Source: Alphaproteobacteria bacterium
GTDB lineage: Bacteria > Pseudomonadota > Alphaproteobacteria > CAAHEQ01 > UBA3637
NCBI GenBank assembly: GCA_017467335.1
Contig: JAFTSJ010000026.1
Span: forward strand, 1 to 35,617
Direction of reading: 5' to 3'
Length of the DNA: 35,617 nt
Shown here: positions 32,620 to 34,131 of the stretch, piece after piece
Layout: every line of letters starts with the position of its first letter
Numbering within the stretch: the first letter of the stretch is position 1
Notes under the pieces: generated by a model
What the model was told of the DNA's origin: nothing
Databases searched by the model: none
What the model saw: the letters and a program-made list of their open reading frames with translations, nothing else
Made by a program: the position numbers and the translations under genes

Positions 32620-33042
32620 TTAACCGACAATTTCATTAACACTAAACCATTGAGCAATTTCACGAGCAGCTGATTCCGGAGAATCTGATCCATGAACGGA
32701 ATTACATCCTTTACTTTCAGCAAATTCAGCCCGAATTGTGCCGGGTTGTGCTTCCGCCGGATCTGTTTTACCCATGACCTGACGATAAGCTGAAATTGCA
32801 TTTTCTCCTTCCAAAACCTGAACAACAACGGGAGCAGATGTCATAAATTCAACCAGCCCGTCAAAGAACGGTTTTCCCATATGTTCAGCATAAAAACGTT
32901 CAGCTTGTTCACGGGTCATTCGAACACGTTTTTGAGCAACAATCCGTAAGCCGGCCGATTCAATTTTTGCATTGATAGCCCCTGTTAAATTACGAACCGT
33001 TGCATCCGGTTTAATAATCGAAAATGTTCTTTCTATTGTCAT
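32620..33042 (-). CDS. ndk: Nucleoside diphosphate kinase
   Basis: Ndk balances nucleoside triphosphates by transferring the gamma phosphate through a phospho-histidine. The 140-residue protein has the [11 protein letters not shown] start, [38 protein letters not shown], and the active-site [15 protein letters not shown] with catalytic His117. I start at 33042 where AAAGGAGAT lies ahead of MTIERTF; a frame reaching 33111 adds a non-homologous leader. It has its own terminator and a promoter candidate at 33083-33111, so it is a separate unit from the division cluster. Confidence 0.97.
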
Positions 33043-33157: not shown

Positions 33158-33193
33158 AAAAAAAATAATCTTCGTTTCGCAACGAAGATTATT
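33158..33193 (-). terminator. Terminator of the small Cys-peptide transcript
   Basis: A perfect 13-bp stem (AATAATCTTCGTT 33164-33176, AACGAAGATTATT 33181-33193) with a 4-nt loop is followed, on the minus strand, by a run of six T beyond the stem. It lies 45 nt beyond the stop of the 10-codon gene, and no other minus-strand gene explains it. Confidence 0.85.
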
Positions 33194-33238
33194 CATCAAA
33201 AGACCAGACATACGCCTGTATTTCTTTTGCTTAAAGAA

Positions 33239-33271
33239 CTATTTTTTTGTTCCGCAACCACAGCCCGGCAT
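33239..33271 (-). CDS. Ten-residue Cys-x-Cys peptide gene (MPGCGCGTKK)
   Basis: A 10-codon frame encodes MPGCGCGTKK and stops with TAG. It is backed by a very strong ribosome-binding site, AAAGGAGGGG (33287-33278), with 8 nt between GGAGG and the ATG, one of the best in the window. A promoter candidate at 33315-33343 and a perfect terminator at 33158-33193 define a transcript of about 150 nt with nothing else in it. The frame is open upstream to two Met codons (MMFGKEGIY), but those begin ahead of the ribosome-binding site. The C-G-C motif could bind a metal or be a processed peptide; function is unknown. It could instead be a leader-peptide sRNA. Confidence 0.6.
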   Translation of the reverse strand: MPGCGCGTKK

Positions 33272-33314
33272 GTATATCCCCTCCTTTCCGAACATCATCG
33301 TATCTCACAAAGAT

Positions 33315-33343
33315 TATGTAATTTGCAAAATAGCACTTGTCAA
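33315..33343 (-). promoter_or_regulatory. Candidate promoter of the Cys-peptide gene
   Basis: On the minus strand TTGACA (33343-33338) has TACATA at 17 nt (33320-33315) or CATAAT at 19 nt. Its -35 box overlaps that of the divergent lipoprotein promoter on the other strand. Confidence 0.5.
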
Positions 33344-33365
33344 CCCATATAAGATTTGCTATGAT
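33337..33365 (+). promoter_or_regulatory. Promoter of the lipoprotein-ELM1 operon
   Basis: TTGTCA (33337-33342), a 17-nt spacer and TATGAT (33360-33365). The predicted start, about 33372, falls right at the ATG at 33373, implying a leaderless mRNA. Confidence 0.65.
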
Positions 33366-33372
33366 ACAAAAC

Positions 33373-34131
33373 ATGAAAAAATATTTATGCTTACTTTTTG
33401 TTTTTCTGTTGACCGGTTGTGCAACATCCAATCCGTTGACAGACTTTCGTTTTCAGACACAAACCGTACCACCTTATATTGTCGCAAGTTGGCATCAAAT
33501 CAATCAGGTCGGAAAACCTATCCGAATTTATATTGAAGGTGATGGTAACGCCTTTGATGCTCACGGCTATCCAACAGATAACCCAACACCGAATAGTGAT
33601 TTTTTGCGTCAAATTGCCGCTCGTGATCCTAATCCGAACGTTGCTTATTTAGGCAGACCGTGTCAATATATGTTAGCAGGCGACTGTTCTGTAAAAGATT
33701 GGACAACTGGACGTTTTTCACCACAAATCGTCAGCAGCATGAATCAAGCAATCAATGCTCTGATGAAAAAAGCCCAAACAAATAAGGCTGTTCTCATCGG
33801 TTATTCAGGCGGAGCACAAATTGCCGGTTTAATTGCTATTCAAAATCCTCGTATTAGTGAAGTTATCACAATTGCCGGTGTATTAGATGTGGATGAATGG
33901 GCTTCTTATCATCATGATACACCGCTATCGGATTCATTAAATCTGTATGATTACAAAAAATCGTTTGATAAAATAAAACAACGCCATTATGTCGGTGGCA
34001 AGGATACGGTTGTTCCACCTCAATTAACACAAAAATTTGTTTCAAACCCATCAACCGTTATCATTGTCCCCAAAGCAACACATAATAAAGGATATGAATC
34101 CATATATAATGAACTGTATCAAGATAAATAG
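33373..34131 (+). CDS. Lipoprotein with alpha/beta-hydrolase fold
   Basis: This 252-residue protein has a lipoprotein signal peptide (MKKYLCLLFVFLLTGC, lipobox LTGC, acylated Cys16). The body looks like an alpha/beta hydrolase: IRIYIEGDGNAFDAHG as the oxyanion strand, nucleophile Ser in the elbow GYSGGAQIAG, acid in YVGGKDTVVP, and a late His in ATHNKGYE. The substrate is unknown; an ester or acyl hydrolase is likely. I start at 33373 because the signal peptide begins there. There is no ribosome-binding site, and the promoter's -10 box ends 7 nt before it. The ELM1-like gene follows after 7 nt. Confidence 0.82.
   Translation: MKKYLCLLFVFLLTGCATSNPLTDFRFQTQTVPPYIVASWHQINQVGKPIRIYIEGDGNAFDAHGYPTDNPTPNSDFLRQIAARDPNPNVAYLGRPCQYMLAGDCSVKDWTTGRFSPQIVSSMNQAINALMKKAQTNKAVLIGYSGGAQIAGLIAIQNPRISEVITIAGVLDVDEWASYHHDTPLSDSLNLYDYKKSFDKIKQRHYVGGKDTVVPPQLTQKFVSNPSTVIIVPKATHNKGYESIYNELYQDK

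Follow-up and report, generated by a model that had tools for sequence, protein, structure and literature searches.

A ten-residue peptide, MPGCGCGTKK, is almost certainly the product of a real, translated gene of its own in the window, that is, the whole 35,617-nt stretch of alphaproteobacterial DNA analyzed here. The mini-gene occupies positions 33239-33271 of the minus strand (11 codons, with the ATG start at 33271 and the TAG stop ending at 33239), and the case for its translation rests on comparison across one alphaproteobacterial order, uncultured and from the gut, in which 30 of 43 genomes, belonging to eight of 13 genera, keep the frame with synonymous changes. Genes this short fall under the standard annotation cut-off, and most short frames are indistinguishable from noise; here, selection on a ten-residue product becomes visible once genera are compared, and its chemistry is testable.

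Evidence for a Translated Mini-Gene

Searched at the DNA level, 58 related genomes returned high-scoring short matches that are centred on the Shine-Dalgarno sequence and the frame and translate to MPGCGCGTKK, MPGCGCGTKKK, or near variants. By pattern search, the form MxGCGCG was found in 20 of the 43 genomes of the order, and relaxing the core pattern brought in ten more, all of genus g3 and mostly with longer forms, which gives the total stated above; a further match to the looser pattern, in G016, was false. In this collection the order, possibly the RF32/CAG-239 lineage, coincides with the family, at 43 genomes. A peptide-profile search, which is weak for short forms, covered these 43 genomes as well. 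Weak profile matches in G010, G025, and G016 and a second one in G060 were rejected, as they either had no start preceded by a Shine-Dalgarno sequence or lay in other frames of ordinary genes.

Codons were compared in 29 aligned loci (a further locus, in G032, is a duplicate of that in G026 and was left out). The five invariant core codons (Cys, Gly, Cys, Gly, and Lys) vary at the third position, but never at the first or second. The first Cys is encoded by TGT in 16 and TGC in 13 loci, the first Gly by GGA (14), GGT (13), GGC (1), or GGG (1), the second Cys by TGC (14) or TGT (15), the second Gly by GGA (18), GGC (7), or GGT (4), and the Lys by AAG (15) or AAA (14). At the Thr codon, the sole change is to Ser, and both TAA and TAG are in use as stop codons. 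Such exclusively silent change in the core argues for a translated frame. The locus hence combines codon-level selection with a ribosome-binding site and a terminator of its own, as expected of an independent protein-coding gene.

The signals around the frame are equally well defined in the window. The Shine-Dalgarno sequence AAAGGAGGGG (33278-33287, minus strand) lies 6 nt before the ATG and is purine-rich and mostly of the GGAGG type in 18 independent loci. Further upstream, a TACATA -10 element (33315-33320, minus strand) is separated by a 17-nt spacer from a TTGACA -35 element (33343-33338, minus strand). Downstream of the stop codon, an intrinsic terminator with a 14-pair stem and a U run (33163-33194, minus strand) closes the unit; of 29 loci, 26 have a terminator-like hairpin after the stop codon, its stem differing in sequence among them. 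Compared with shuffled sequences, the predicted 154-nt RNA of the mini-gene folds with z = -3.2, mostly because of this hairpin.

An earlier note, made from the single sequence, had described the frame together with a promoter, a strong ribosome-binding site, and a terminator, each of which is present, and had read them as a deliberate stand-alone gene, in agreement with the recurrence of frame, Shine-Dalgarno sequence, and terminator in the 30 genomes. It had also proposed that related genomes keeping promoter and terminator without the frame would speak against the gene; the comparison favoured the frame. Three further points, described below, are absent from the note: that the -35 box is held in common with a lipoprotein gene running the other way, that longer relatives contain three or four Cys, and that the family is restricted to a single order.

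The Peptide Family and its Distribution

The short members of the family comprise MPGCGCGTKK, MPGCGCGTKKK, MDGCGCGTKKK, MPGCGCGTKKGK, MPGCGCGSKGTKK, and MPGCGCGCGTKKK, while the forms of genus g3 run to 17-27 residues (e. g., MAENQDCGCGTKKGSKK, MADCGCGCGTKKGGKPKDSKK, MNLDGCGCGCGTKKPSKPKDSKK, and MAKIKGCDCGCGTKKGPKK). Constant throughout is an internal CGCG followed by T/S and K, that is, a core CGCG(T/S)K, together with a lysine-rich tail of variable length; the number of Cys-Gly repeats also varies, so that a peptide holds two to four Cys. The earlier note had raised heme, beside soft metals, as a possible ligand; the CP heme motif is absent from the family. The longest form, MAESKDCGCGCGTKKGGTKKGEAKKDC (locus L107, G058:C28:8924-8995), has an extra C-terminal Cys, and its locus lacks the -35 box TTGACAAG discussed in the next section.

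Across 84,980 bacterial and archaeal species, an exact-pattern scan for the short form yielded 17 hits, every one of them in uncultured alphaproteobacteria, though its patterns target the short form and would miss the longest forms, whose spread could be wider. Where a source is named, it is the gut of sheep, roe deer, or yak, and the 'Lapin' sample names of other hits suggest rabbit. No hit outside the order was obtained in a class sample of 385 and a phylum sample of 398 genomes, with patterns to which the longest forms would likewise be invisible. Likewise, the short form was found in none of 2.9 million viral contigs, and the peptide had no match in plasmid and phage collections.

The earlier statement that no family with this sequence is known holds, as searches of Pfam and NCBIfam gave no match; with the long forms as queries, neither these libraries nor the PDB sequences returned one. 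The peptide family is new to the libraries searched, and literature searches on the peptide itself found nothing relevant. Ten residues are no record for a gene, since mccA of microcin C7 is a natural gene of seven residues. The GMSC catalogue takes in very short frames, with a minimum of 30 nt (PMC11364881), so that the mini-gene sequence may already be present there unannotated.

A -35 Box Shared with a Divergent Lipoprotein Gene

Divergently from the mini-gene runs a gene for a lipoprotein with a weak match to FSH1-type serine hydrolases (PF03959; 33373-34131, plus strand), which is followed on the same strand by one for an ELM1-like protein (PF06258; 34139-35092). A lipoprotein homologue lies divergently upstream of the mini-gene in 28 of 29 loci and within 145 bp in 27 of them, the two start codons being about 80-145 bp apart. 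The ELM1-like gene follows the lipoprotein gene in 16 of the 17 lipoprotein-bearing loci of the 8-kb set, which includes the window.

Between the two genes, a single -35 box, TTGACAAG (33336-33343), appears to serve two divergent promoters, as judged from the arrangement of the elements: it reads TTGACA toward the mini-gene and TTGTCA toward the lipoprotein gene, and its exact sequence is found in 27 loci. On the lipoprotein side, the -10 element TATGAT (33360-33365, plus strand) is spaced 17 bp from the common box, and among 18 independent loci TA is found at exactly this distance in all 18 and TAnnnT in 16. Toward the mini-gene, TA stands at 17 bp in 12 of the 18 loci (other spacings: at most seven), and its -10 element, otherwise degenerate, is better conserved in position than in sequence. 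With a -10 element on either side of a common box, both at a spacing of 17, the locus has the layout of a bidirectional promoter, strong on the lipoprotein side and with a looser -10 on the peptide side. As the lipoprotein promoter is the better conserved of the two, much of the conservation of the TTGACAAG box could be owed to it. The ATG of the lipoprotein gene follows only 7 nt after its -10 element (window 33337-33373), a gap that suggests a probably leaderless lipoprotein mRNA, whereas an extreme Shine-Dalgarno sequence precedes the gene on the other side.

This arrangement resembles the bidirectional promoters described by Warman et al., in which one pseudo-symmetric sequence gives rise to two divergent RNAs (PMC10268837, PMC12825309). 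In the usual case, however, a -10 element is held in common, with start sites 18 bp apart, and published bidirectional promoters mostly share this element (PMC10268837), whereas here it is the -35 box. The common -35 box would thus represent a clean natural bidirectional promoter of less usual geometry.

The association between the two genes is close, albeit not absolute. In G033, the mini-gene is located elsewhere, away from the lipoprotein gene, and has retained its Shine-Dalgarno sequence and terminator. In G058, the lipoprotein homologue is a fragment of about 41 residues, about 1.2 kb from the mini-gene. At the g3 loci L106, L108-L112, L114, and L115, similarity of the neighbour to the lipoprotein hydrolase is limited to roughly the first 143 residues of the latter, and a full-length copy is present elsewhere in most of these genomes. 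In several genera without the mini-gene, other genes occupy the region upstream of the lipoprotein gene; at L059-L063 (genera g5 and g8), for example, a ferredoxin-like gene runs into it on the same strand, so that the divergent promoter is lost. At L131 (G018), the start of the lipoprotein gene adjoins an apparent tmRNA gene. As for structured RNAs in the window, an Rfam scan recovered bacterial RNase P RNA alone (RF00010; 2700-3061, minus strand).

A Putative Thiol or Metal Peptide

Concerning function, we see about an even chance that the mini-gene specifies a free-standing CxC thiol peptide, strongly translated and cytosolic, that serves as a binder of soft metals or iron-sulfur units or as a disulfide exchanger, a proposal drawn from the sequence features and from analogy. 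RNA polymerase would start at the promoter whose -35 box is common with the lipoprotein gene and, judging by the anatomy of the locus, produce a monocistronic RNA of ~150 nt that would end at the intrinsic terminator just past the stop codon. The near-consensus Shine-Dalgarno sequence would then load ribosomes and yield the ten-residue peptide in quantity, translation as such being indicated by codon conservation. Since Pro occupies position 2, methionine aminopeptidase is expected, following an established rule, to trim the Met and leave PGCGCGTKK(K), which presumably stays in the cytosol because it has no signal sequence. The thiols of the Cys-Gly-Cys unit would be the working part, their acidity conceivably raised by the lysine tail, and may act either by soft-metal or iron-sulfur binding or by dithiol-disulfide exchange.

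A CGC peptide in free form shows disulfide-isomerase activity and has a potential of -167 mV (PMC2672033), and RKCGCFF, which is longer and has added basic residues, is more efficient than the CGC peptide (PMC5238392). A-type Fe-S carriers provide Fe-S ligands through their C-terminal tail, in which two Cys are essential (PMC7144353). Two Cys in ten residues make an incomplete metal site, so that metal binding would need two peptides or a partner. The conserved neighbourhood of the mini-gene contains no metal, redox, or Fe-S gene.

No A-type Fe-S carrier was found in the 22 genomes of the order sampled, with the controls scoring, and glutathione synthetase was recognized in none of 21; two hits to the latter were read, from sequence and neighbours, as other ATP-grasp proteins. 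These absences suggest that there is room for a ribosomally made thiol or metal peptide, yet they are no proof of one. Genera g5, g7, g8, g9, and g10, which lack the mini-gene, are also without A-type carriers and glutathione synthetase, and the peptide is thus dispensable in the order and not an obligatory or simple replacement. A strict substitution for glutathione or A-type carriers is accordingly not supported, as the absence is order-wide and includes the gene-less genera.

A bolder version of this proposal, which we offer tentatively and as possible rather than probable, is that a gut order without glutathione synthetase and A-type carriers uses a ten-residue Cys-Gly-Cys peptide as free thiol or as Fe-S or soft-metal cofactor, that is, as a genetically encoded low-molecular-weight thiol from one of the shortest stand-alone protein genes known. 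If the free dithiol were abundant, the cell would owe its thiol or metal buffer to the ribosome instead of to peptide-ligase enzymes.

Alternative Explanations

Among the other readings of the locus, the one that survives best, though unlikely, is that the peptide forms a miniature zinc knuckle, equipped with a lysine tail and binding RNA or the ribosome, akin to half a SEC-C motif (CxCG(S/T)xKK). The core C-G-C-G-T-K-K-K agrees with the SEC-C consensus over its first half, a lysine-rich tail suits nucleic acid, and forms with three or four Cys exist; the short forms, however, lack the second pair of zinc ligands, and a profile search of PDB sequences gave no match. Complete SEC-C motifs are moreover present on SecA-sized frames in all 22 genomes sampled, so that the peptide replaces nothing there, and a substitution for the SecA tail is ruled out.

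Distinctly unlikely, too, is a small regulatory RNA whose frame is translated but in which the RNA or the act of translation is what matters, be it a dual-function RNA or a trans-acting leader such as peTrpL. The short monocistronic RNA with its terminator would suit this idea, and trans-acting leader peptides have precedent (PMC7298713). Yet the coding part, with its silent-site changes, is the most conserved part, whereas the 5' UTR and the terminator stems diverge and no obvious conserved seed is seen besides the Shine-Dalgarno sequence. The leader peptide in a regulatory RNA that the earlier note had offered as its alternative is thereby disfavoured: the peptide is conserved, unlike the RNA beyond Shine-Dalgarno sequence and terminator, and 12 of 17 loci have a convergent gene downstream.

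Size and Cys-Gly pattern could also point to the precursor of a modified or secreted peptide (a RiPP, metallophore, or signal), a possibility raised from the single sequence that the family makes improbable: it has no conserved leader part, no signal sequence, and no modification enzyme or exporter conserved alongside, and phage, plasmid, and viral collections held no match.

Highly improbable is a cis-acting leader or attenuator that senses the charging of Cys, Gly, or Thr for the downstream gene, here ndk (32620-33042, minus strand). In the window and four further loci, the mini-gene and the gene after it have the same orientation, but a constant same-strand gene was not found; downstream genes differ in identity and are mostly convergent, which excludes a general cis-attenuator, and ndk is simply the gene that follows in this genome.

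Finally, that the frame is a by-product of selection on the lipoprotein promoter alone is scarcely credible: although non-coding conservation is highest in the -35 box and the lipoprotein -10, the frame begins some 80-145 bp away from the start codon of the lipoprotein gene, its silent-site pattern reveals codon-level selection, and G033 keeps it, with its signals, away from the lipoprotein gene.

Comparison with Known Systems

The copper-responsive upstream ORF CruR is likewise a small translated Cys-containing ORF and meets a soft metal, but it combines a CXXC sensor with a RAPP arrest motif and regulates, in cis, the genes that follow it (PMC9426467). The mini-gene has neither a CXXC nor a C-terminal RAPP and heads no operon, which sets it apart from the DUF2946 uORFs. 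Metallothioneins are small, cytosolic, and built on Cys-x-Cys repeats with Lys; they contain many more Cys and residues, however, and the peptide, with two to four Cys, has no sequence-family match. With the SEC-C zinc motif (PF02810), the peptide shares the residue order CxCG(S/T)xKK, yet SEC-C needs a second C-H/C pair, which is missing in almost all forms of the free peptide, and no profile match places it in that family.

The two-Cys C-terminal tail of A-type carriers (IscA/SufA/ErpA, PF01521), which binds Fe-S, has a CGCG arrangement as well. Unlike the peptide, these carriers are folded domains of about 110 residues with a third Cys; a Pfam scan of the long forms was empty, and the short form has only ten residues. 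As a putative thiol-redox peptide, the mini-gene product can by analogy be compared with the designed CGC peptides of Woycechowsky and Raines and with RKCGCFF, which similarly present a free, short Cys-Gly-Cys dithiol next to basic residues. Whereas those are designed molecules and serve in protein refolding in vitro, the mini-gene product would be a natural counterpart, expected in the cytosol.
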